In this document: positions 26,015 to 39,949 of the stretch, in pieces
Layout of the letters: every line of letters starts with the position of its first letter
How positions within the stretch are numbered: position 1 is the stretch's first letter
Source of the DNA: a virus
IMG/VR virus record: IMGVR_UViG_3300046721_000156
Location: 1 to 44,651 of that record
DNA: 44,651 bases
Strand: one strand, 5' to 3'
The notes under the pieces: model-generated
Database searches by the model: none
Told to the model about the DNA's origin: nothing
Seen by the model: only the letters and a program-made list of their open reading frames with translations
Translations under genes and position numbers: made by a program

Positions 26015-26752
26015 ATGCCGAATCCGTACTTGATGGACGAGACCAAGGTCCCAGACAATTGGACGCCCGCGCAAGCGGCGGCAGTCCGTCCGGGCCAAGC
26101 GCCTCCGGGCGCGCCTGCGGCACCGGTCCCACACGACATGCCGCAGTTTTTCTCCGGCTCTATGCCTCCGACGCTGCAGCACGACGTCAGCTTCGTGGGT
26201 ACAGAAGTGGGTACGCCTCGAATCCCGAAGTACTCGTTGATGCCGCTCGGCAACCAAGCCAACCCGTTCACGAACGCGGCCGCGGCCAGCACGATTACGA
26301 CGATCATCAACAACATCCCAGTGGTACCACCGACGCCATCCGGCGGACTGGAAGCCAGAGCTACAGCATCGATATCGTCCGGAGTGTTGGCTAACCTTGC
26401 CAGCATTACGGGAACTGTCACGATGGCGAAGACATTCTCTATCATCTTCATCGTGGTCAATGTGGCAAGTCGCATTCAGCTTTACTCGACAGCAGCAGGC
26501 CGAGATACGGCACCAGAGCCGACTCGTCCTATCAGCGTACCGCCGACACCGGGACTCGCCGACCAGATTATCGGAGACTGGAACTTGACTGGTTTGACCG
26601 GCGTACCGCTGACCTTTCCTTGCCAGCCGCCAGTGCTTGGCGCGAACCAAGATACAACCGAATCGACAACGATTTACTGGCGCATCACGAACTTGAGTGG
26701 CAGTTCGACGACAGTCACCGCAGATATAACGTATCTGCAACTTGAGGCTTAA
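26015..26752 (+). CDS. Tail or fibre-associated protein (245 aa)
   Basis: The gene starts four bases after the previous stop. The N-terminus PNPYLMDETKVPDNW is followed by an Ala/Pro-rich linker (AVRPGQAPPGAPAAPVP), then a polar beta region and a Val/Ile-rich segment (FSIIFIVVNVASRIQLYS) that could be a buried strand rather than a membrane span. It has no enzyme motif. The next gene begins at the base after this TAA. Its place between fibre genes suggests a baseplate or fibre adaptor. Confidence 0.65.
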   Translation: MPNPYLMDETKVPDNWTPAQAAAVRPGQAPPGAPAAPVPHDMPQFFSGSMPPTLQHDVSFVGTEVGTPRIPKYSLMPLGNQANPFTNAAAASTITTIINNIPVVPPTPSGGLEARATASISSGVLANLASITGTVTMAKTFSIIFIVVNVASRIQLYSTAAGRDTAPEPTRPISVPPTPGLADQIIGDWNLTGLTGVPLTFPCQPPVLGANQDTTESTTIYWRITNLSGSSTTVTADITYLQLEA

Positions 26753-28306
26753 TTGACAACGAAGGTTCAGTCGTTCCTAAAATTTGATAGCTCATCGCTT
26801 GCCAACTACAAGAACTGGGCGCAAGGAATCGGCACTGCGCTATCTTCTTTAGGGTGGGTCCAGACTGCGGATACCGGCCAAGTAACGTGGGGCAACGTTG
26901 TAGCGGTCCCCGGTCAGGCTCCGATTGCATCATCGTGGAACCCGGTTACGTGGACAGCTAACACTACGTACACAGGCGTCGCAGGCGGCTCAACTGGCGC
27001 GGTCACGGCAGCAATTCGCAGCGGATTGACGTATGCGTGCATCTCGACCACAACTCCTTTGGTTTTGACGCAAGCATTGCAGAACACGGCAACATCGTTA
27101 TCGGTCACTGGCAACGCAGCAGCATCCGCTGGCAACACAAACTACACAGTTGTGTCCAGCACTGGCGCGGTCGTCGGTCAACAATACATCGTCACCGGCA
27201 TGGGCAACGCTGCGAACAATGGAACGTTCATCGTCACCGCTGTACCCGACGGCACCCACGTAACGCTATCTAATCCGAACGGCATTTTGTCCACCGCCCA
27301 GTCTGGAACTATGGCATCGGTCACCTCGGTCTTGACGTTCCTTGGCACGATCACTGGCGGCGCGTCGAACGCACTGGTCGGCTACACGTTCACCACGACC
27401 GGTTTCGCAAACAGCCCGAACAACATCACATTCACGGTCACGTCATCTAGCGCGGCAGCGTTCGCTTGCACGGCAACAGGAACAAACGAAACGCACGCTG
27501 GTTCCGCCGCGTGGGGGACACCGCCGGAGACAGACACCATCCACTGGACGACGTACAACTACGAACTTTGGGGGATGGCGGACTCTGCTTCGTCAACCAG
27601 TCCGTTCTATGTTCGATTCGTATATAGCCGTAGTTCTGGCTCTCCGTTGGGCGCGTCTATCTACGCCAGCGCGGGAATCGCAACAACTGGAACCGGGTTC
27701 GTTAGCGGACAGACATTCACGAGCGCTGGCGCGGAGTTCACTCTCCCGACTGCGCTCAACTTGAACGGTCAAGGCAACACCACATTCGAGTGCGACTTCT
27801 GTGTATCGGCGACAGGCGGAAGTTTGAGCATCATGATGTGGAGAGACGCGGTGTTCACTGCGGCCACATTCCCTTGGGTTCTAGTATTCGATAGAGCGAA
27901 GGACAACTTCGGAGTCGACCTCGACGCGTATATCGTATGTCTTATGTCATCGAACGGAGCCTCCGCTCAACAGATGCTGTACAAGGCGGGCGGCGGTGGA
28001 ACCAAGATTCCGAACAGCACGACCCCGTTCACGCGTTGGTCCGTTCCGAACTTCAACGCTGCTACCACATTATCGTTTAGCAACAACGCGCCAGTTCTCC
28101 CAATCTTCCCGGTCGGTCTCGGATATCTCGCATCACCGTGCCTCGGGGCTGTTGTGTTCAAAGGCTCTGACTGCGTGGAAGGAAGTTTAATTCCCGTATT
28201 CATGTACGGCGCGGCGCACACGTTCTTGATCGGTAAGGGCGGATACACGACAGCCGACCAAGGCTCTGGCGGTGCCGCAGTGGGTATCGGCATACGGTGG
28301 GAATAA
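26753..28306 (+). CDS. Fibre protein with two NNGTF domains in tandem (517 aa)
   Basis: The start is TTG 26753, adjacent to the previous TAA. The TTGACA formed here is part of the start region and has no matching -10 box. Residues about 128-191 and 195-254 are two NNGTF-type domains, the second ending NETHAGSAAWG, like the copy at 17163-17342. The C-terminal half is Gly/Ser-rich and ends in a beta fold (GGAAVGIGIRWE). It is a tail fibre by position. Receptor binding by the C-terminal half is inferred. Confidence 0.7.
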   Translation: MTTKVQSFLKFDSSSLANYKNWAQGIGTALSSLGWVQTADTGQVTWGNVVAVPGQAPIASSWNPVTWTANTTYTGVAGGSTGAVTAAIRSGLTYACISTTTPLVLTQALQNTATSLSVTGNAAASAGNTNYTVVSSTGAVVGQQYIVTGMGNAANNGTFIVTAVPDGTHVTLSNPNGILSTAQSGTMASVTSVLTFLGTITGGASNALVGYTFTTTGFANSPNNITFTVTSSSAAAFACTATGTNETHAGSAAWGTPPETDTIHWTTYNYELWGMADSASSTSPFYVRFVYSRSSGSPLGASIYASAGIATTGTGFVSGQTFTSAGAEFTLPTALNLNGQGNTTFECDFCVSATGGSLSIMMWRDAVFTAATFPWVLVFDRAKDNFGVDLDAYIVCLMSSNGASAQQMLYKAGGGGTKIPNSTTPFTRWSVPNFNAATTLSFSNNAPVLPIFPVGLGYLASPCLGAVVFKGSDCVEGSLIPVFMYGAAHTFLIGKGGYTTADQGSGGAAVGIGIRWE

Positions 28307-29158
28307 ATGGCACTTATACCAGTTCAGTTTATTAATTCTGGAACAAACATTGCCACCAGTCCGACAGCGGCCGCAGTCACACTCAGCGTAACCGCGGGCA
28401 CCCAGCTAGTCGCATTCGGTTGGGGCGAAGGCGCGGGCTCTAGCTCCGGCGTTGGCACAATCAGTGACACACAGTCAAATGTGTGGACTAGGATTCTCGA
28501 CACAGGACTAATCGTAGGTGGGGCACCGGGATTCTCCGGCCCGTGGCGCGGCAGCATCTGGTGGACTACGTGCTTGGCAACCGGTAACGTAACAGTTTCA
28601 GTCCCGGGAGCAAGCACATCTAACGCACGTTTAGCATTAGACAACTACCGAAACCTCGGCGCGGTGGTCGGCTCTCAGCCGTTCACATCCGGCAGCGCAG
28701 CAGGCTCGTTCTCTGGACCGAACCAAGCGGCACCGGGAGACAACACCTTGTACTGGAACTTCTGGCGCTGGCAGAACGCAGCCATCGACACAGTCATCAG
28801 TTGGACTCAACGCAGCACGACGAACAGCCCCGCGTTTCCTACGTTTGATTTCCTAGAAGGAATCTCGGGAGTTACGGCAACTGTTCAAACCGCGACCAAC
28901 ACAGGCTCTGGCGGCTTCTTCGGTATCTACGCACAACAGGTTTTGTTCAGTTCTGCGGCGGCAACAGCAGACCCGAACAACGGCAACGTGTTCTTAGGTA
29001 CTGCCAGCATGGGCATGTTCGGGATGACGTGGTTGAAAAATGTGACCTTGCTCGCAAGAGACTATTGGGACCAAGGTTTGACAGCACCGTACGTCGGACA
29101 AATCTACCCTTCACCGAATACTGGTGGGGCGCAATCAGGACAGACGTATCCATACTAA
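28307..29158 (+). CDS. Jelly-roll-like tail protein (283 aa)
   Basis: The ATG immediately follows the previous TAA. The N-terminal domain (LVAFGWGEGAGSSSGVG, WRGSIWWTTCLATGNVTV) has the same pattern as the first 200 residues of the protein at 24659-26011, so these two fibre genes share one module. The C-terminus is Gly/Thr-rich (PSPNTGGAQSGQTYPY). It ends the fibre block; the next gene is the GNAT-like protein. No catalytic motif is seen. Confidence 0.7.
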   Translation: MALIPVQFINSGTNIATSPTAAAVTLSVTAGTQLVAFGWGEGAGSSSGVGTISDTQSNVWTRILDTGLIVGGAPGFSGPWRGSIWWTTCLATGNVTVSVPGASTSNARLALDNYRNLGAVVGSQPFTSGSAAGSFSGPNQAAPGDNTLYWNFWRWQNAAIDTVISWTQRSTTNSPAFPTFDFLEGISGVTATVQTATNTGSGGFFGIYAQQVLFSSAAATADPNNGNVFLGTASMGMFGMTWLKNVTLLARDYWDQGLTAPYVGQIYPSPNTGGAQSGQTYPY

Positions 29159-29159
29159 T

Positions 29160-29579
29160 ATGAAATTCACACCTTCAACGGTCGGAGACATCCCACAACT
29201 CACGGAGTGGATATCGAACGACCCTTATCACTTTCACCTTGGACAACCGGAGTGGTGGTTGACCGGGGCGAAGGACAGCTTGCTCGCCTTCTGCTTGATG
29301 GACAACCGAGGCCCCCTGACCTACGTGCGTCTTGATGCGGAAGGCGAGTACGTCCGCATCCACACCCAGTTCGCGCCGAAGAGCGTGGTATCTCAACGCA
29401 GGCTGGTGGTGGGTATGGTTAAAGCTATCCACACTCTGATCGGCCTTTACAGCAAGGGAACAGCGAAGGGACTCGTATTCAATTCGGTGAGTCCCAGTCT
29501 GATAGTGTTCATGAAAAATTTCGGATTCACCCCAGTCGGCAACGATGATTATAGACTGGACTTTGAGGGACATAACTAA
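29160..29579 (+). CDS. GNAT-like protein in the T7 gp13 position (139 aa)
   Basis: ATG 29160 is chosen; the open frame extends 36 bases upstream but into the preceding gene. The C-terminal pattern FMKNFGFTPVGNDDYRLDF matches the last strands of GNAT acyltransferases, and MVKAIHTLIGLY would be the helix near the cofactor site. The classic Q/R-X-X-G-X-A/G loop is not clear, so catalytic activity is doubtful. Position before the gp14-, gp15- and gp16-like genes equals that of T7 gene 13, needed for virion assembly. The next ATG follows its TAA directly. Confidence 0.65.
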   Translation: MKFTPSTVGDIPQLTEWISNDPYHFHLGQPEWWLTGAKDSLLAFCLMDNRGPLTYVRLDAEGEYVRIHTQFAPKSVVSQRRLVVGMVKAIHTLIGLYSKGTAKGLVFNSVSPSLIVFMKNFGFTPVGNDDYRLDFEGHN

Positions 29580-30266
29580 ATGTGCGGACCCACATCATCG
29601 GAGAAATCACTCCAACAAGATAGCCAGAGTTTCTCCAACCAACTGCGCCAGAACTACGGCACGTTGTTCGGAAAGCAACAAGGCGTTCTAGATTCGATCA
29701 ATCGTTCCCTCAGTCCGGTACTCGCTGGCGGACCTAGCCAGCACGGATTCACGGCCGATACTTTGGCTGCGCTGAATACGGGCGCAATCAATGCCGCGGG
29801 TGCCGCGAACAAGGCCGCACAGCAAGCCGCGCGCACGTACGGCGCTGGCGAGGGCGGAGGCGGGACCTCGGGAGTGACGTCCGGCATCACGAAGCAGATT
29901 GAGAGCGCCATCGGCAGCCAGAACGCTAACGCGCTGGCGGGGCAGCAGAATCAGATTGTCCAAGCCGACTACGCACAAGGCAACGCCAACTACTGGCGCG
30001 CTCAAGGCGCGGAGCAGCAACTGGCGGCCGGGTACAGCCCGAACGCGAGCCAAGAGGGAGCGATCAGCGAGAACGCTCAATCGTTCGGACAAGCGAAGGA
30101 AATTCAACAAGCGGAAGAGCGCAAGGCGCAGATGATCGCTGGCGGTATCACTTCACTGGCAACCAACATCGTAGCCCCGGGATTAGGCGGCGCGTTCAAG
30201 GCCGCGCAAGCTGGCGATAGCATCGCGGGCGGCTTCTTCTCCGGACTTGGCGGAAAACAAGGATAA
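29580..30266 (+). CDS. Internal virion protein B-like (T7 gp14 position, 228 aa)
   Basis: The protein begins MCGPTSSEKSLQQDSQSF and is Ala/Gln/Gly-rich with long helices (NKAAQQAARTYGAGEGGGG, EERKAQMIAGGITSLATN). The hydrophobic, glycine-rich C-terminus (LGGAFKAAQAGDSIAGGFFSGLGG) could insert in the host envelope. T7 gp14 has similar length, composition and position and builds the ejection channel. Its stop codon is directly followed by a hairpin and a strong promoter. Confidence 0.75.
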   Translation: MCGPTSSEKSLQQDSQSFSNQLRQNYGTLFGKQQGVLDSINRSLSPVLAGGPSQHGFTADTLAALNTGAINAAGAANKAAQQAARTYGAGEGGGGTSGVTSGITKQIESAIGSQNANALAGQQNQIVQADYAQGNANYWRAQGAEQQLAAGYSPNASQEGAISENAQSFGQAKEIQQAEERKAQMIAGGITSLATNIVAPGLGGAFKAAQAGDSIAGGFFSGLGGKQG

Positions 30267-30332: not shown

Positions 30333-30359
30333 TTGCCTCCGGGCAAAGGAACAACTGAA

Positions 30360-32585
30360 ATGGCGATTGTACAACCGAACGCACCACAAGACAGCAGCCA
30401 GCTTCCGGCACAAGGAATAGCACCCGGAGCGGGCGCGCCTTCAATCTTGGCGGGCCTCCCCGGCCAGCAACAGCCTGCGCCAGAGCAAGGCGCTTTGGAG
30501 CAGATGGTCTCCGGCTATTTGAAGCACATCACCACGATTGCCGACCAATCCGATTTGACCAAGAAGACCAATGCTCAAGTGGCTGCGTCTCAAGCGGCCG
30601 CAAACAAGCCAGTGGTTGAGGGCCAACCAGCGGCTGCACCCCGCCCCGGCTCCTTCGGTGACAAACTGTCCAGCGCGGTAAACGCGTGGGGCTCCGACGC
30701 GGCGCATGCTACCGACCGTCCGGGCGGATGGTTGAGCGGTATCGCAAACACATTGAACGCTCGCGAGATGAGAATGGCTCAAGAGCAGAAGGACCAAGCG
30801 TTGCTCGCGAAGACACAAGCCGAGACAGTCATGTTGCACCGCAACGCGTATCTTCAAGAACTCCCAATCCGAGAAGGGATGTACAAGGCCAACGAAGATT
30901 ACGTCGGCACCAAGCGTTTGAACCACGACGTGACCGAAGACATTACTCATGACGAGTTGATGAAGCGCTCCAAGGAAAAGGATTTCGCGGCCAAGTATTT
31001 GGTGCGCGCGACCGGCGAAGAGCCAGTATTGGGCGCAGATGGTATGCCGACCAAGGACAAGAACGGCATCCCGGTTACGATACCGAAGTACGCGATCATC
31101 ACCAGAGCCACGAAAGACGGTCAGCCGGACAACCACACGCTGACTGCAGACAACGCTGCGGAGATGAAGAAGTACCTAGGCAGCGGACTGCCAGCTAACA
31201 CGACCTTGACAGGCCCCCAGTGGGACGCGTTGAACGTACAGTTAGTGAACGCGCGCAACGCTGTCAACACTTTGGAAAACGGAAACGAGAAGCCGTTGTC
31301 GGAAGGGCAGATGAAGTCCATCTCTCCGTACTTGAACGACCCGACCATTCAGTCGGCCATCGCCCACGTACCGGGCAGCCCGTACGCTGGAATCAAGGAA
31401 TATCAGAAGAACGCAGACGACCAGATCGACGCGTTCCAACAGCTTGCGGACAGAGCGAAGGAACAGAAGGACCAAGGGACCTACGATCAAGCGACCGCGA
31501 AGATTTCAGAGATCAGACAGGAACAGAGCAAGGTTGCCCAGTTCGCCGCATCCGGGGCAATCGACCCGAAGCAGATCGCTGCGTACGACAAGAAGAACGA
31601 GGAGCAAGTCGGCTGGATTGACAAGATGTTGCACGACCCGAACGAGATGGCAGGCGAGAAGTCTGTCACCGCGTTGTCCCAGTTGCAGACCGCGCTGGAT
31701 TCTGCGACCGACCCGAAGGTCCGCGTGAAGTTGACGCAGGCCATCGCTACCGCCAAGAACGCGCATCAAGCGTACCGCGACGATTTGGAAGCGAAGGCAA
31801 AGGCCGACCAGATGGCGAAGCAAGGCGACCCGAAGGAAGCTGGCCGATTGTTGGCTGGCGGTTTGTTAACTTTGGATGACTTGAAGACTCGCGGAACGAC
31901 CGCGCAATTCATTCAGCAAGCTACCGACGCAGCCGTCGCTATCGACAAGGATTACAATCCTGCGGACGAGAAGAACTTCGAACACGTAGCTAAGTCTGCC
32001 ACAATGGCAAGATTCTTTGGAGCCAGCCGCTCGATGATGGAGAAGGGCGGAACCACGGATATCGTGTACAACCTAGGCCAGAGAATCCCAGACAATGGTA
32101 TGCCAGTACTGAACAAGCTGGAAGACTGGGCCAAGTTGGCAGCAGGTAAGGGTCCTCTGTCCGGATACGCATCATCTATCTTGGGTCTAGCTGACGACTA
32201 CTCGAAGGTCATGGGCGGCGGTAACGCAACTGACTCCGCTAGAGACCACGCGCTCTCTTTGATGGGCGCGGCCTTGACTAAGGCTCAGCGTCTGGAATCG
32301 CTCCAAGCGTTGTTGGCTGACGTTGGTTCTCAACAACATGGTATGATCGGTAAGAACCGATTCATGCAACGCGAGTACAACGACTTCGAACGTTCGAATT
32401 TGACACCGAAGATCACCCCTCCGGAAGCACCGGCAGCGGGTCAAGGTCAAGCAACCATCGCCCAGCCGAAGGCTGCAGCCGCGAAGCCGACCGGTAAAAA
32501 GGTCGGAGAGAAGTTCACGCAGGGCGGCAACGAATACACTATCACCTCAGTTGACAAGAATGGAAACGTAACGGGAGCAGAGTAA
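30360..32585 (+). CDS. Internal virion protein C-like (T7 gp15 position, 741 aa)
   Basis: ATG 30360 follows AAAGGAACAACTGA; a TTG nine codons upstream is less likely. The protein is almost entirely helical and charged, with coiled-coil stretches (MRMAQEQKDQALLAKTQAE), an Ala/Pro/Gln-rich N-terminus (QPAPEQGALEQMVSG), and a short beta end GNEYTITSVDKNGNVTG. T7 gp15 is a helical core protein of 747 residues forming the ejection tunnel, so length and place agree. Its TAA overlaps the next ATG (TAATG). Confidence 0.75.
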   Translation: MAIVQPNAPQDSSQLPAQGIAPGAGAPSILAGLPGQQQPAPEQGALEQMVSGYLKHITTIADQSDLTKKTNAQVAASQAAANKPVVEGQPAAAPRPGSFGDKLSSAVNAWGSDAAHATDRPGGWLSGIANTLNAREMRMAQEQKDQALLAKTQAETVMLHRNAYLQELPIREGMYKANEDYVGTKRLNHDVTEDITHDELMKRSKEKDFAAKYLVRATGEEPVLGADGMPTKDKNGIPVTIPKYAIITRATKDGQPDNHTLTADNAAEMKKYLGSGLPANTTLTGPQWDALNVQLVNARNAVNTLENGNEKPLSEGQMKSISPYLNDPTIQSAIAHVPGSPYAGIKEYQKNADDQIDAFQQLADRAKEQKDQGTYDQATAKISEIRQEQSKVAQFAASGAIDPKQIAAYDKKNEEQVGWIDKMLHDPNEMAGEKSVTALSQLQTALDSATDPKVRVKLTQAIATAKNAHQAYRDDLEAKAKADQMAKQGDPKEAGRLLAGGLLTLDDLKTRGTTAQFIQQATDAAVAIDKDYNPADEKNFEHVAKSATMARFFGASRSMMEKGGTTDIVYNLGQRIPDNGMPVLNKLEDWAKLAAGKGPLSGYASSILGLADDYSKVMGGGNATDSARDHALSLMGAALTKAQRLESLQALLADVGSQQHGMIGKNRFMQREYNDFERSNLTPKITPPEAPAAGQGQATIAQPKAAAAKPTGKKVGEKFTQGGNEYTITSVDKNGNVTGAE

Positions 32586-35500
32586 TGGCCGACTTTACGC
32601 CAGAAGAGAAGCCGCAAGATATCGGACAAACTGGACCGTCGACCGACATTCAATCGCCTTACCCGGGCGCTACGAAAGTTGAAGATGGTATCGCGTACGA
32701 CGCAGCCGGGAAGCAGCTAGGACCGGTTGACGAGAACACGATGAAGGCTCCGGGCGCTGCGCCTAAGCCGAAGTGGAACCCGGACGCGCCGATGCAGTTC
32801 GCGAACGAGAAGACAGAAGCTGCGGGGAAGCCGAAACCAAAGTGGGACCCGAAGGCTCCGATGCAGTTTGCACCGCCAGCCGCCGAAGAGGGCAATATCG
32901 AGATTCCGGAAGTGAAGCCGGAAGGATTTTGGGGACACATCAAGGCCGCCGTTGCGGGACCGAACACAGCCTTTAATACTCCGGAAGGGGAAGCACACGA
33001 GCAAGAGCGAGAAGGATTGTGGGATATTCTCACCGGAGATATCAAAAAGGGTTTTGGAGAAGTTTGGGACGCGAACAAGATTGACGCAAATCACATCATC
33101 CCGAACTCACCAGTAGAGTGGGCTATCCGCCAATTCGACCCAGACTTCCGCGGTCAAGCCACCAAGGAAGCGCAAGCTGCGTACAAGGAAAAGAATCCGA
33201 ATCCGGGCGAGAAGCCTCTTGTTGACATCGCACAGTTCGTCGACATGAAGAAGCACCCGATTGCGAAGGCATTGACTGAAGTTGCACAAGGTTTCACCTC
33301 TCCAGAAAACGTTGCGATCATGTACGGAACCGGCGGCTTAGGCTTGCTCGGAAAAGTGCCGCAAGCATTCCGCGCGTACCGCGTAACACAGCGGCTAATC
33401 TCTGCGGGATTTGCTTACCAGTCTTTGGAGAGCGCGTACGAACACTCGAAGGCATTCAAGGAAGCGTACGACGCAGGCGACGAGACGAAGGCCGAATACG
33501 AGTTGACACACGCCGTGGCTGCGGGAGTAATCACCGCCCAAGCCGCTACTCACGCTGCGGAGGGGAAGTACAAGGTTGGCGGAAAGACCGTTGAAGTCAA
33601 GCCACTAGTAGAGCCGTCTCCGACCGAGAAGAAGGTTATCGGCGCAGTCACAAACGTAATCGGAAAGGCTGCGGAACCGGCCACCAACTTCGCAAAGGAA
33701 AAACTGCAAGCCGTAACCGACCGTGTCGGTGAGGCCATCGGCAAGACTTCCGATTTCGATACTGCGGTCGGCCGCGTAGCGAACATGATGGGTAAGAAAG
33801 CAGGACCGGAGTTCCTAGAGACGGTCAAGACTGCCAGCGATGACTTGAAAGAGATCATCAACAAGGACACCGCCAACAAGATCAAGGACCCGCAAACTGC
33901 GGCAGATGCGATCACCCAGCACCTGCAATCAGATATCGAAGCGCCTTTGCAGCGCGAAGCTGGCGCTACCAAGGACTCTGTGGAGCCGGTTGTTCCTGAC
34001 TTCGGGAAGAGATTGCGTGAGCGTCTAGACAAGTTCTTCGACGACAACGCAGGCCAGTACGGGAACAACGAGCAAGAAGAAGCGATCAAGCAACGCATCA
34101 TCGACCGCTTGACCCGCAACCACGACCTTGGAAACGGCGTAGTCTTGGACCGCGACCCGAACCTGTACGAGGCGGAGAATGCACGTCGAGGATTGAACAA
34201 GTCGTCCGGAGACGTATTCGAGCACGGCACCACTTCTGGATACCGCGCCGCATCTGCGGAAGCCGCGAACTTCATGCGTGAAGTGATCGACGAGGCTTAC
34301 AAGGCCAAGGGCATCAAGGGAGTACCGGAAGCGCGCGCGAAGGAAGCTGCGCTGATTAAGGTTAAGGAAGCGTTGGAAGCGGCACAAGGCTCTTTCGAGA
34401 AGCAGCAAGGCACTCCTTGGCTTGCGAAGTTGTTCAGCACCGGCAAGCTGCTCGGTATGCTCGGCACGATGGGTGCCCACTTTATGAGCAGCGATGCTCT
34501 CTCGGGCGCGCTGGCTGCGGGGACTATTTGGAAGGGCGTCCATGAAGAGAACGCAACCAACATCGAGAAGAACCTAGACCGTATGAGAGAGTTGGCTGGC
34601 CGTGATAAGAGTGCGACCGCCACAACCCCGGACGTTGGAGGAGCACCTCCTCCGACTCAAGGACCTGCAGGAACAGGTCCGTTCACACCTCGTGGCACCC
34701 CGGAACCGGGAGAAGAAGAGCCACTACCGGCTAACGTGCCGCCTAGACCGGAACCACCGCAACCCGCTACGCGTCCTGCGGTCAACCACAGCATGAACGG
34801 TGTGTTGTCTTCGTACTTCAACCAAGGCAGAACTACCGACCCGGTTGAGTACAAGAACATGGTCGACAAGTTCAACGTCGAGTACGCCAACATGAAGGCC
34901 CAAGTCGTTATGGCGAAGGCGGAAGGGCGAGAACTCACGGAGCAGCAACAGAAGGAGTGGGACCGCGCGAACGTTGTAAACGAGAAGTTGAACAACGAAC
35001 TGACGAAGGAAGACGCTGCGTTAGAGAAGGAAAACCAGAAGCGCCAAGATCAGCACCAGAAAGAATTGAACAAGTGGAACGCGAAGCTGCAGCAAGAGAA
35101 GGCGAAGGCCGCTGCGGAGAAGGAAGCCAACACAGACGCCGAGTCTGCGGCGAAGAAGCAAGCTGAGGCTGAACGCGTGGCCGGAATCTTGGCTGATGAG
35201 CGAATAGCCCACAGCCCGATGATGAAGGCAACCGAACCGGCTACGCCTATCGAGGGTCTGGAAGGGCGCAGTTCGAAGCAAAACCACGAACACGAACACG
35301 GGCATATCGTCGCCGCGACTGCGGAAGGCTTGAACCCGGTAGCGTTCATCACGGACAAACACCCGACCGCAATCGAAGACAACGCTATGGCACAAGTCCA
35401 CACCGACCTTACCGGAATGGAGAGAGGCGGACGTGGTATTAAGCAGCGCGTTATAGCAGCATTGGGCGGAGCGGCGTGGGACGAAGTTCACCACGGGATG

Positions 35501-38500
35501 AAGCTGAGCCGCAATACGGGCGCTGGTTCCGATATCGCATTCGCTCGAAAACTGTTGCGCGAGAAGGCTGGATTGCAGGGAGCCCGACTTGACAAAGTGT
35601 TCGATGCGCTGTATGATATAGCCAAGGAACATGTCTCAAATCCGGAGGCTATCGCGCTGGTACAAGCCAACGCGCCTTTAAGAGAAGCCGGGTTGCACGA
35701 GAATCACCACATGTCCCCGGGACGTATGGAAGAATATGTCAAGAAACTACAGGGAGTATTCAAAAATGGCGAAACACCAACCACCGAAGGAGTTCATGAA
35801 GGGCCTGCCGATGAAGGAGTACGAGGCGGAGAATCCGATGAGCCCGGAGGAAGTGAAGAAGAACGGGCTGGAACTGCTGCAAGTCCACGCGCCGAAGCTG
35901 TACGAACGGGCGATGAAGGCGGCGAAGCCGGAGCAGGACCAGAGCGAGTAAGTCCGAAGTTCAAGGGCGGCACGAACGCAGCCGGTAACGAAGCGACTGC
36001 GCGGAAGGCCACCGCGGAGCAGAAGGTCCAATCTTTGGTCGACGACAACGCTCGACTAAAGGAATTGCTGCGTTCGAACAAAGGCACTCCGGAAGAGCGT
36101 GATGCCGCGCTCCGCCGCATGGAAGAGAACAACACGCTGATTAACGAAGTGGGCAAGGTGGATAAGTTCGACCAAGCTAACCTAATGCAGTCTGACAAGA
36201 TGAACGACGAGATGGAAGATGAGCCTACCGTCATGAGTCGGGCGGACTTCAAAAAGAACGTATTGCACGCCTACGACACTATGCATCAAACACCACAAGC
36301 TGCGGTACGCCGTGTGGTTCAAGAGGCTAAGGCACGAGGTGTAGAGGTTCCAGAAGAGTATTACCGAGACAAGGGCAACCTCCAAGCGCCTCCGGAGCGT
36401 TCAACCGGCGACAAAGAACTAGACGAGAAAATCAGAAAGGGTGGGGCAGTACCCGCAGGTCGAATGGGTCCGCTCGCTATGTTCCACCACCCAGAGACCG
36501 GCAGCACCCTCGCGTTGAAGCCGGAAGATATCACACCTGAGACCGTTAAGGAGCACCTCGGCCACAGCAAGGAAGCATTCACCCAAGGCGACATCCGCAA
36601 CACCGCTCGTGAATACAACGCTGCGCGCAATATGCCGGAAGTCAACCCAGCGCCGGTCATGGAAGACCCACGCATCAACCAGATTGCGGACACATACGAT
36701 AAGTTGGAGCACTCTCCGAACGACCCGAAGGTCAAGGCATCTTACGACGCGTTCAAGAAAGAGTTGGACGATCAGTACGACGCATTAGAGAAGTCCGGAT
36801 TCAAGTTCGACACCTCCAAGGAAGACCCGTATCCATCGTATGAGGCTATGCGGCAGGATATTCTCCGCAACAAGCACCTCACCGCTTGGGAGGGTGCTGC
36901 ACCGCCTGCGGACCACCCGCTGGCTGAGCGCGACCCGAAGACCGGGATGACCTACAATGAAAAGTTCCGACTAGTACATGATGTGTTAGGACATGCCGCA
37001 CATGATGCAGACTTCTCCGGCAACGGCGAAGAGTCTGCGTGGAACTACCACCGCCAGATGTTCTCTCCGGAAGCCCAGCCTGCGTTGGCTGCGGAGACGC
37101 GCGGCCAAGTGGCCTCGTTCACCAAGAACGGAAAGTTCCCAGAGAGTCAGAAGGCCGTGCTGCTACCAGACGAGTTCAACAAACGTCCGGAAGAAATCCC
37201 AGACACGGAAGTCGACAAAGGTAATCTCTCCAAGGCCAAGGCCGTAGAGGGTCTTGATAAGATGCGGGAGAAGTACGGAGAGACAGATGATGCGTCCACA
37301 GCCAGAAACGGCCACATCTTCATCACCCCGGAAGGTAAGTTTGTTGACGTCGGCGATCACTCCGACGCAATCGCAACTCACACTGGATACACGAACGCCA
37401 AGTCTACTCCTCGTTGGGACAACCGTCCAGAGTTTATCAACAAGTCTGGCGCGGTTCGCTCTTACAGCTACAACAGCCGAGGCGGAGAGAATTTATCGTT
37501 CTCGGTTCCAAAGGACGGCGTAAATGAAGCGCAAGCTAACGCTATGCGCCGCGCTGTCAAAGAAGGATTGAGCCGAAACGGAAACTTGATTGTGGAGCGG
37601 GCGGACGTAACCGGCGACACTTACGGAGAGCTAAGTCGAAAGAAAGAGTTCCCGAAGGACGGGGACGTTGATCGAATGCTGCGAGAAATTGGCGCTCATC
37701 CGGGCGGCGGAACAACACCGGAAGGACCGAAGCCGGGCGAGAAGGTTCGCGGCGCGGTCAACACCGAGAATACTGCGGCACAAGCGGCTGCGGAGAATGC
37801 TAACCGTCAGCGTGAAGCCGAGTACAACAAGAACTACACACCGGGCGGACGATTGAAGCTGAACCTAGATAAAGACGATATCAAGCCGGAAAACTTGAAC
37901 GTCGACTTGGAGAAGCACCCCGCTGGTGGGATTGACCCGTTCACCGGCAGCATGGAGAGCAAGCGTTACGGCGTGGAGATTGCGCCGGAACAGCGTGAAG
38001 TGCTCGACCACAAGCCGACCCCGGCGGACTTCCACCGATTCGCGGTGGAGAATATCGACACTTTGAAGCAACACCCAGACGTTAAGATTGGCTGGGACAC
38101 GCTGGGCGGTAAGCCCGAGATGAACATCGGCGTCTCGACCGACAACTTGGACGCTGCGAAGAACATTGGCGCAAAGTTGGACCAGCGTTCGGTTTGGGAC
38201 ACTCAGAAGCAAGAAGAGGTTCCGACCGGCGGCAAGGGAGAGCAGCGCGAGTTCCCTGACTACCCGATGAGTGCGCGTCTTGCGGACCTAGACAAGGGTA
38301 ACCTCACTAAGGACGACGATTTCACTGTTCGGGGAGAAACTGCGAATGTGGGGCCAGCGGAATCACTAACGAACCCAAAACAGTTCCGTGATAAAATACA
38401 AGATGTTTCTACCCTTTCGCCAAGAGAGCAAGTGGCAGAGTTAACAGATATGCTTGATAGAGCGAGACGTAATTATAGTGAATCGACTCGTCAAAAGGCT

Positions 38501-39949
38501 AACTATCTGCGAGATTATTGGAGAGGCAACGTCAACATCGTTAAAGATGCTCTAGAGGCCGCTAGAATTGCCGCAACAGAGCAGAAAAAAGTTGACCAAC
38601 GGCACGCTAGTTTTGTATCGCCCGGTGAGCCGATTCCGTCAAATCCCATCTACCAAGGACCGCGTTCTCCCATCAACAAACAAGCTGCTCTCAATACATA
38701 TTCACCGATAGACCTAGACAAGGGCAACTTGAAGTCTCCCAAGGGCTCCTCGGTTCCTTTGATGGAAGAGCCTTTGGAAGTGGAAGGCACCGGAGAGAAG
38801 GGCCGCATCTCCACGCTGGATGTGGCGCAAGCGTTGAACGAATACAGCAAGGAAAAGAATCCTGCGTTACAGCCGGGCGCTGAACCGGAAGAGATGGTGA
38901 AGCGCGCGAAGAAGATTGCGGAAGACGAGGCCAAGTACCAGATGGCATCCGGCAAGACCGGGACCGCATGGTACACCGACGAGATGAAGGACCACGATAA
39001 GGCGTTGACGGAGGGTCGTCCGGAGTTGTTGACCGGGGAGAATATCGACACTCCGACACCGTGGCCTCACACGGCAAAGTTGAGCATCTTCAAGGCCGCG
39101 GAGGCCATCCTATCTTCCGGCCAGAAGCCATACGGCAACTTTAAGTCTGCCGTGAAGGCTTGGGACGCGTACAACGAGACCGGCGAATTTCCACGCTTGA
39201 ACCCGGCGACTGGAAAGTCGTGGGGTCCTCGCGGAGAGGCTGCGTACGGCAACGCTCTCGATATGTTGAACCATCTCATCAAGGACAAGGGCGAGAAGGG
39301 CGCAGCAGAGTGGCTGCTGAACGACCACCCTGTTTCGGAATTGAAGCAATACAAGCCGAAGGGCGTGAAGGGAGCTAAGAACGATATGCGTCCCGGCGCG
39401 ATCATCCTCGGTGAGAAGCGTGGACCGTTCATGCAAAACCTCCACGGTATCGAGGCCGCGTTCACGGCCGACATGTGGGTATCCCGTACTTGGAACCGTT
39501 GGATGGGTACGATGGAGTTCGGCAAGGACAAAGACGGCGAGATGGAAATCAAGTCCGACTCCCCCCGTAACGGAGCGGAGCGCGACTTGATGAAGAAGTC
39601 GTTCGCGGAGACTGCACAAAAGTTAGGTTTAACGACGTCTTCACTACAAGCCGTCCTCTGGTACTACGAGCAAGCGCTTTACACGCGCCACGGAATACCG
39701 AAGGAATCTTGGTCGTTCCGAGATGCGGCACAACGTGCGATGAAGGAAGCGGCCATGCCTCCGGAGGCGGAGCAAACCGGCTTCAACTTCGGCGCTAACG
39801 AGAAGCCTGCGTCACAAGGCGGGCTAAACTTCAACGCGAAAGAGAAGGGCGGACTCGGCAACTTAGGTAATATCCCAGTCGTGAAGAGCAAGTTCGTAGA
39901 CTTCAACAAGCCTATCGGAGGGGTGGACAAGAGCCCCTTGACAAAGTAA
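32585..39949 (+). CDS. Giant ejection/internal virion protein with M41-like peptidase signature (2454 aa)
   Basis: In the T7 gp16 slot, but about 1100 residues longer than T7 gp16. The N-terminus has two copies of PKWxPxAPMQFA (W64, W87). A zinc-protease signature HEHGH at 903-907 is followed by LGGAAWDE and NTGAGSDIAFA with D983, as in FtsH/M41 peptidases, where the third zinc ligand is that Asp about 77 residues downstream. A second module has HDVLGH (1465-1470), ESAWNYHRQMFSPEA and ETRGQ. A C-terminal module has GPFMQNLHG near 2280 and FTADMWVSRTWNRWMG. DKGNL occurs at 1262, 1544, 1903 and 2045. A transglycosylase motif like that of T7 gp16 was not seen. It is presumably ejected with DNA. 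Residues about 1061-1122 overlap an embedded gene in another frame. Confidence 0.85.
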   Translation: MADFTPEEKPQDIGQTGPSTDIQSPYPGATKVEDGIAYDAAGKQLGPVDENTMKAPGAAPKPKWNPDAPMQFANEKTEAAGKPKPKWDPKAPMQFAPPAAEEGNIEIPEVKPEGFWGHIKAAVAGPNTAFNTPEGEAHEQEREGLWDILTGDIKKGFGEVWDANKIDANHIIPNSPVEWAIRQFDPDFRGQATKEAQAAYKEKNPNPGEKPLVDIAQFVDMKKHPIAKALTEVAQGFTSPENVAIMYGTGGLGLLGKVPQAFRAYRVTQRLISAGFAYQSLESAYEHSKAFKEAYDAGDETKAEYELTHAVAAGVITAQAATHAAEGKYKVGGKTVEVKPLVEPSPTEKKVIGAVTNVIGKAAEPATNFAKEKLQAVTDRVGEAIGKTSDFDTAVGRVANMMGKKAGPEFLETVKTASDDLKEIINKDTANKIKDPQTAADAITQHLQSDIEAPLQREAGATKDSVEPVVPDFGKRLRERLDKFFDDNAGQYGNNEQEEAIKQRIIDRLTRNHDLGNGVVLDRDPNLYEAENARRGLNKSSGDVFEHGTTSGYRAASAEAANFMREVIDEAYKAKGIKGVPEARAKEAALIKVKEALEAAQGSFEKQQGTPWLAKLFSTGKLLGMLGTMGAHFMSSDALSGALAAGTIWKGVHEENATNIEKNLDRMRELAGRDKSATATTPDVGGAPPPTQGPAGTGPFTPRGTPEPGEEEPLPANVPPRPEPPQPATRPAVNHSMNGVLSSYFNQGRTTDPVEYKNMVDKFNVEYANMKAQVVMAKAEGRELTEQQQKEWDRANVVNEKLNNELTKEDAALEKENQKRQDQHQKELNKWNAKLQQEKAKAAAEKEANTDAESAAKKQAEAERVAGILADERIAHSPMMKATEPATPIEGLEGRSSKQNHEHEHGHIVAATAEGLNPVAFITDKHPTAIEDNAMAQVHTDLTGMERGGRGIKQRVIAALGGAAWDEVHHGMKLSRNTGAGSDIAFARKLLREKAGLQGARLDKVFDALYDIAKEHVSNPEAIALVQANAPLREAGLHENHHMSPGRMEEYVKKLQGVFKNGETPTTEGVHEGPADEGVRGGESDEPGGSEEERAGTAASPRAEAVRTGDEGGEAGAGPERVSPKFKGGTNAAGNEATARKATAEQKVQSLVDDNARLKELLRSNKGTPEERDAALRRMEENNTLINEVGKVDKFDQANLMQSDKMNDEMEDEPTVMSRADFKKNVLHAYDTMHQTPQAAVRRVVQEAKARGVEVPEEYYRDKGNLQAPPERSTGDKELDEKIRKGGAVPAGRMGPLAMFHHPETGSTLALKPEDITPETVKEHLGHSKEAFTQGDIRNTAREYNAARNMPEVNPAPVMEDPRINQIADTYDKLEHSPNDPKVKASYDAFKKELDDQYDALEKSGFKFDTSKEDPYPSYEAMRQDILRNKHLTAWEGAAPPADHPLAERDPKTGMTYNEKFRLVHDVLGHAAHDADFSGNGEESAWNYHRQMFSPEAQPALAAETRGQVASFTKNGKFPESQKAVLLPDEFNKRPEEIPDTEVDKGNLSKAKAVEGLDKMREKYGETDDASTARNGHIFITPEGKFVDVGDHSDAIATHTGYTNAKSTPRWDNRPEFINKSGAVRSYSYNSRGGENLSFSVPKDGVNEAQANAMRRAVKEGLSRNGNLIVERADVTGDTYGELSRKKEFPKDGDVDRMLREIGAHPGGGTTPEGPKPGEKVRGAVNTENTAAQAAAENANRQREAEYNKNYTPGGRLKLNLDKDDIKPENLNVDLEKHPAGGIDPFTGSMESKRYGVEIAPEQREVLDHKPTPADFHRFAVENIDTLKQHPDVKIGWDTLGGKPEMNIGVSTDNLDAAKNIGAKLDQRSVWDTQKQEEVPTGGKGEQREFPDYPMSARLADLDKGNLTKDDDFTVRGETANVGPAESLTNPKQFRDKIQDVSTLSPREQVAELTDMLDRARRNYSESTRQKANYLRDYWRGNVNIVKDALEAARIAATEQKKVDQRHASFVSPGEPIPSNPIYQGPRSPINKQAALNTYSPIDLDKGNLKSPKGSSVPLMEEPLEVEGTGEKGRISTLDVAQALNEYSKEKNPALQPGAEPEEMVKRAKKIAEDEAKYQMASGKTGTAWYTDEMKDHDKALTEGRPELLTGENIDTPTPWPHTAKLSIFKAAEAILSSGQKPYGNFKSAVKAWDAYNETGEFPRLNPATGKSWGPRGEAAYGNALDMLNHLIKDKGEKGAAEWLLNDHPVSELKQYKPKGVKGAKNDMRPGAIILGEKRGPFMQNLHGIEAAFTADMWVSRTWNRWMGTMEFGKDKDGEMEIKSDSPRNGAERDLMKKSFAETAQKLGLTTSSLQAVLWYYEQALYTRHGIPKESWSFRDAAQRAMKEAAMPPEAEQTGFNFGANEKPASQGGLNFNAKEKGGLGNLGNIPVVKSKFVDFNKPIGGVDKSPLTK
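35589..35617 (+). promoter_or_regulatory. Consensus promoter inside the giant gene
   Basis: TTGACA at 35589-35594, a 17-bp spacer, and TATGAT at 35612-35617: six of six and five of six consensus matches. The predicted start of transcription is about 140 bp before the ATG of the embedded gene. Its -35 region (CTTGACAAAGTG) resembles those of the promoters at 30289 and 39938 (each TTGACAAA), suggesting one promoter class. Confidence 0.8.
35766..35951 (+). CDS. Embedded overlapping gene in the +1 frame of the ejection protein gene (61 aa)
   Basis: An ATG with AGGGAG nine bases upstream opens a 61-codon frame wholly inside the giant gene. The peptide begins MAKHQPPKEFMKGLPMKEYE, continues with PMSPEEVKKNGLELLQVHAP and a helical KLYERAMKAAKPEQ end. 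Its codons use the GC-ending set of the phage (AAG, CTG, CCG, GCG), while the giant frame here reads a Gly/Glu/Pro low-complexity linker. Together with the upstream consensus promoter this argues for a genuine gene. Function unknown; charged, helical, no membrane span. Confidence 0.7.
   Translation: MAKHQPPKEFMKGLPMKEYEAENPMSPEEVKKNGLELLQVHAPKLYERAMKAAKPEQDQSE

Follow-up and report, generated by a model that had tools for sequence, protein, structure and literature searches.

The window, meaning the whole 44,651-nt stretch of viral DNA analysed here (positions 1 to 44,651 of IMG/VR virus record IMGVR_UViG_3300046721_000156), belongs to a soil-type phage and contains a structural cassette of podovirus type that runs from terminase, portal and major head protein onwards and ends with a giant gene. 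This ORF is real and encodes a protein of 2454 amino acids. The features at the locus are listed below.

30333..32585 (+): gene for a 750-aa protein immediately upstream of the giant gene, a likely partner virion protein
32585..39949 (+): gene for the 2454-aa giant protein, final gene of the structural cassette, polyvalent-protein-like
34787..35920 (+): segment of residues about 735-1112 (M41 domain and the linker upstream), common to all six of the closest giants
35276..35767 (+): M41-like peptidase domain, residues about 898-1061, from the AlphaFold2 model and fold and profile matches
35291..35305 (+): HEHGH, residues 903-907, predicted to supply two zinc-ligand histidines and the general-base glutamate; aligns with HEAGH of FtsH
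35465..35485 (+): GGAAWDE, residues 961-967, equivalent of GGRxAEE of FtsH
35516..35533 (+): TGAGSD, residues 978-983, equivalent of TGASND of FtsH; Asp983 is the predicted third zinc ligand
35624..35710 (+): C-terminal helices of the M41-like domain, about residues 1014-1042, with invariant N1029, R1033, E1034 and H1042
36602..37234 (+): widespread phage domain, residues 1340-1550 (phrog_3170, unknown function)

A colinear cassette is present in Tunturi 3, a Tunturiibacter phage and a cultured podovirus of Acidobacteriota (PMC11924767). There, the gene position of the giant is held by gp25 (26674-29886, 1070 aa), which carries a HELTH motif; any HExxH occurred in 0.4% of gp25 shuffles. Sequence similarity was not detectable between gp25 and the window giant, and their equivalence therefore rests on gene position. 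Homologues of the 750-aa protein also precede the giant gene in five of the six relatives compared. Residues 1337-1549 of the giant are common to the giants of Microcystis phage Mel-JY33 and podovirus ctQRb9, and the C-terminal segment (residues 2110-2366) is also shared with ctQRb9. The ctQRb9 giant carries LPD22 and ART-PolyVal domains, and LPD22 was detected below cut-off in that of Mel-JY33; the HExxH sites of these two giants, HEMGH or HETAH, show no similarity to M41. Judged by the domains that it shares with known polyvalent proteins, the window giant is a phage polyvalent-type protein. Gene order together with these shared domains makes the role of an ejection protein plausible, and the giant is probably packaged and injected with the DNA.

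The domain at residues 1340-1550 occurs in most of the 202 phage records matching the giant, and coding sequence for it lies in at least 579 stretches of viral contigs. It has invariant N..FR.VHD...H, G, H and E...Q residues. A model built from 46 relatives (pLDDT 92.9, pTM 0.89) found no convincing match in the PDB (best Foldseek E 0.92; VIA Z 2.0), which does not prove a new fold. Four of the 46 members matched Pfam MATCAP, a metallopeptidase, with E down to 1e-4. This domain is possibly an unrecognised metal enzyme.

The original prediction, made from the DNA letters, had described a zinc peptidase signature of the FtsH/M41 type in a phage ejection protein. HEHGH, GGAAWDE and TGAGSD were indeed found in the giant, in the order of M41 peptidases and at similar spacing: the distance from His903 to Asp983 is 80 residues (74-78 in a reference set of 17 M41 domains). 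Shuffling the giant protein produced HExxH by itself about 11% of the time, but HExxH followed by GGxAxxE and an Asp at loose M41 spacing in only 8 of 20,000 shuffles. On both sides of the domain are low-complexity linkers that are charged, rich in proline or acidic. When the six closest giants were compared, the segment bearing it (residues 735-1112) was the best conserved part and the remainder was a mosaic.

A scan of viral and genome contigs uncovered homologues of the domain in eight further contigs (L001/L029, L003/L031, L005/L030, L007, L008/L032, L033, L035 and L036). The comparison set thus comprised 12 domain copies from nine phage-like contigs, window included, with the remaining eleven copies 25-68% identical to that of the window. 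The prediction had looked to homologues for conservation of the HExxH motif and D983, and H903, E904, H907, G962, A964, E967 and D983 were invariant in all 12 copies. Two of the copies (HEAGGH in L032 and HEVGGH in L033) have one additional residue between the glutamate and the second histidine; because of this HExxxH spacing, their zinc geometry must differ, or their activity may be lost. Three giants (L007, L030 and L035) each contain two divergent copies in tandem within one polypeptide, and the first copy of L035 reads HEWAH. The L036 giant contains a copy of the second type only, which shares about 25-30% identity with the first type. No significant relatives of the phage domain were found by tblastn of cultured phages or, with the L007 copy, in plasmids. 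L007 (CABMCB010000010.1) is filed under an archaeal genome (uncultured archaeon LFW-28) and resembles the same phage family; it is probably a phage contig binned with the archaeon. DUF7178 was located near the C-terminus of the L005, L007, L008 and L036 giants (E 1e-27 to 1e-33) and was not found by Pfam in the window giant, whose different C-terminal segment is common to L029 and L033.

The copies were compared as a profile, by hhalign, with 17 FtsH-type M41 domains of bacterial, plasmid and phage origin; the probability was 89% (P 2e-6, score 45.8) with six copies, 95.6% (P 1e-8, score 60.2) with nine and 96.5% (P 7e-10, score 68.5) with all 12. The top scores of column-shuffled controls were 25.0 (200 trials, six-sequence alignment) and 22.5 (300 trials, nine-sequence alignment), all 500 controls being built on alignments smaller than the 12-sequence one with which they are compared. 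A single E. coli FtsH sequence was uninformative as the profile target, and a proper M41 alignment was needed. An hmmsearch with the 12-sequence profile against 177,635 PDB sequences returned six matches at E up to 10, every one an FtsH; the top match was 2di4, an isolated FtsH protease domain (E 0.046). Scans of the giant protein with Pfam, PHROGs and NCBIfam made no M41 call. The PF01434 cut-off was reached by no single sequence, whether from the window or from its homologues (one copy scored 8.3 bits), and nothing exceeded it in the related phage records and 29 genomes of the phylum of L007. The domain is therefore classed as M41-like, a distant homologue. A Pfam match of the giant to fvmX3, "FtsH ternary system" (E 1.1), was dismissed as chance.

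An AlphaFold2 model of the domain was built from six sequences (pLDDT 70.1, pTM 0.73). Foldseek searches with this model, the kind of check that had been proposed for the M41 assignment, placed members of the FtsH family at all of ranks 1-45 (best E 1.5e-3), and VIA-align 2 matched it to 22 FtsH-type entries with Z 10.3-14.5, the best being 3kds_F (Z 14.5 over 144 residues). VIA matches above Z 8 were of the FtsH type only, and unrelated folds stayed below 4. D983 aligned with the FtsH aspartate; E967, the alternative ligand if the site were of the Glu-zincin type, is also invariant in the 12 copies. Alignment and predicted fold place D983 as the predicted third zinc ligand. Motifs, profile and predicted fold agree in showing that the middle of the giant is distantly homologous to the protease domain of FtsH, with HExxH and the distal Asp kept. 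Among viral models, the best match to the domain was A0A6J5RJ76, a phage protein named Peptidase M41. The PDB entry 5iqj, a Vibrio cholerae protein of unknown function of about 130 residues, had Z 7.2 to the domain model and may, on this structural comparison, be a stand-alone M41-like fold.

M41 peptidases are components of ATP-driven machines. Neither a Walker A motif nor a strong membrane segment is present in the giant protein, and no AAA match, fused or separate, was found in the window, as the prediction had stated of the ATPase. Seven records, the window included, were searched for AAA, and four had a separate AAA ORF; the window and two related records lacked one, and these may be fragments. 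The AAA ORF of G005, the only one for which the distance was worked out, is separated from the giant gene by about 30 kb. Lacking a hexameric AAA ring, an M41 domain might have no activity or serve a structural purpose alone.

Compared with FtsH, Yme1 and AFG3L2 (M41; 2di4, 3kds, 2ce7), the window domain has the same order of HExxH, GGxxAxE and GA..D, similar spacing and the same predicted fold. It differs in having no fused AAA+ ATPase or clear membrane segment, in its mid-chain location within a 2454-aa phage protein, and in falling below the Pfam cut-off. M41 domains are also present in the genomes of large phages (the PA5oct group and MaAM05), but there they belong to full-length FtsH proteins of about 575-735 aa (annotated gene length) that can be recognised by simple similarity to E. 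coli FtsH. A0A6J5RJ76, from an uncultured Caudovirales phage, is likewise a phage protein with the M41 fold and, at 214 aa, is too short for an additional AAA domain; unlike the window giant, it is a separate small protein with no known giant virion-type context. Stand-alone phage M41 proteins are already in the databases, and what is new here is the M41 type inside a polyvalent-type giant.

Another close parallel is offered by the zincin-like metallopeptidases of polyvalent proteins, such as P1 DdrB and N4 vRNAP (Iyer et al. 2017, PMC5512222). These also have HExxH or HExxxH inside a giant phage protein that is thought to be injected, and they have neighbouring domains in common with the window giant; however, their third ligand is Glu, whereas the window domain is of the M41 type with a predicted Asp ligand. 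They were reported to have no specific kinship with other zincin clades, and M41 and FtsH are unmentioned in the main text of that paper (PMC5512222). An HExxH subdomain is also described in N4 vRNAP, an ejected giant (PMC12633501). Metallopeptidases are thus a known and common component of injected phage polyvalent proteins, and have been proposed to process their own proteins, with host targeting as an alternative role (PMC5512222). The original prediction had called a protease in such a protein unusual. Since the metallopeptidase motif is common in these proteins, this holds for the M41 type and not for the presence of a protease. The literature searched, coverage of which was partial, contained no description of M41 in a polyvalent or ejection protein of a phage.

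By analogy with these systems, the domain is probably an active, ATP-independent M41-like zinc peptidase that cuts the giant protein itself, in the virion or after entry, although our confidence in this is limited. It would bind zinc and cut protein, and the giant would be packaged and then ejected together with the DNA. The domain would play the part ascribed to Glu-zincins in other polyvalent proteins, having replaced the usual metallopeptidase. Cleavage would fall in the disordered linkers of the giant, either while the virion matures or once entry has taken place, and would set its other domains free. As there is no AAA motor, the substrates would be limited to unfolded or loosely folded segments, a restriction in keeping with linkers that are flexible or with a chain being threaded through the phage tail.

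Processing of its own protein is the most likely role, and cleavage of host targets is less likely. As an injected effector, the domain would cut host proteins early in infection (e.g. in defence, transcription or the envelope) rather than its own polypeptide. Polyvalent proteins do bear effector domains, host targeting is the alternative named for their metallopeptidases, and a copy number of one or two with divergent paralogues would be expected if targets differ. The domain, however, lies mid-chain in the best conserved segment of a mosaic giant, which is closer to a core role, and a host effector has no known target; we regard this as a serious contender of lower probability. We think it rather unlikely that the M41 fold is a structural relic or scaffold without proteolysis. 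Plant FtsHi proteins keep the M41 fold and lack proteolysis, and the altered HExxxH spacing in two of the 12 copies and the missing ATPase for feeding substrates would suit such a reading. Yet the catalytic residues are all kept in every copy at identities as low as 25%, and the paper on polyvalent proteins presents their HEXXXH metallopeptidases as a bent-helix variant and does not call them dead (PMC5512222).

The separate AAA ORFs in four of the seven records could mean that the domain acts in trans, together with an AAA ATPase that the phage or the host encodes separately. Such ORFs could equally be replication factors, though, the one in G005 is distant from the giant gene, and the window and the two related records, possibly fragments, have none; action in trans thus appears very improbable. 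A chance motif was rejected on the shuffles and the profile comparison. That HExxH-GGxAxxE-D arose by chance or convergence in a low-complexity coiled protein unrelated to M41 would agree with the lack of a Pfam M41 call, but fold, profile and PDB-wide tests alike singled out FtsH, so that this explanation is largely refuted and scarcely credible.

Self-processing by an M41-like peptidase remains the preferred reading. For the family as a whole, it is somewhat probable that injected phage proteins acquired M41 domains, present once or as divergent tandem copies, for use as ATP-independent proteases in processing or as effectors, and that these took the place that Glu-zincins fill in other phages. 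A complete FtsH-type protease domain without its motor, in a giant that is probably injected, suggests that the module can be reused on its own when infection begins, and such a motor-less family would provide a natural test of the protease half acting alone. The presence of two metallopeptidase types in the same place argues for a needed function, and the question of why giant phage proteins such as P1 DdrB and N4 vRNAP carry HExxH metallopeptidase-like domains thereby becomes directly testable.
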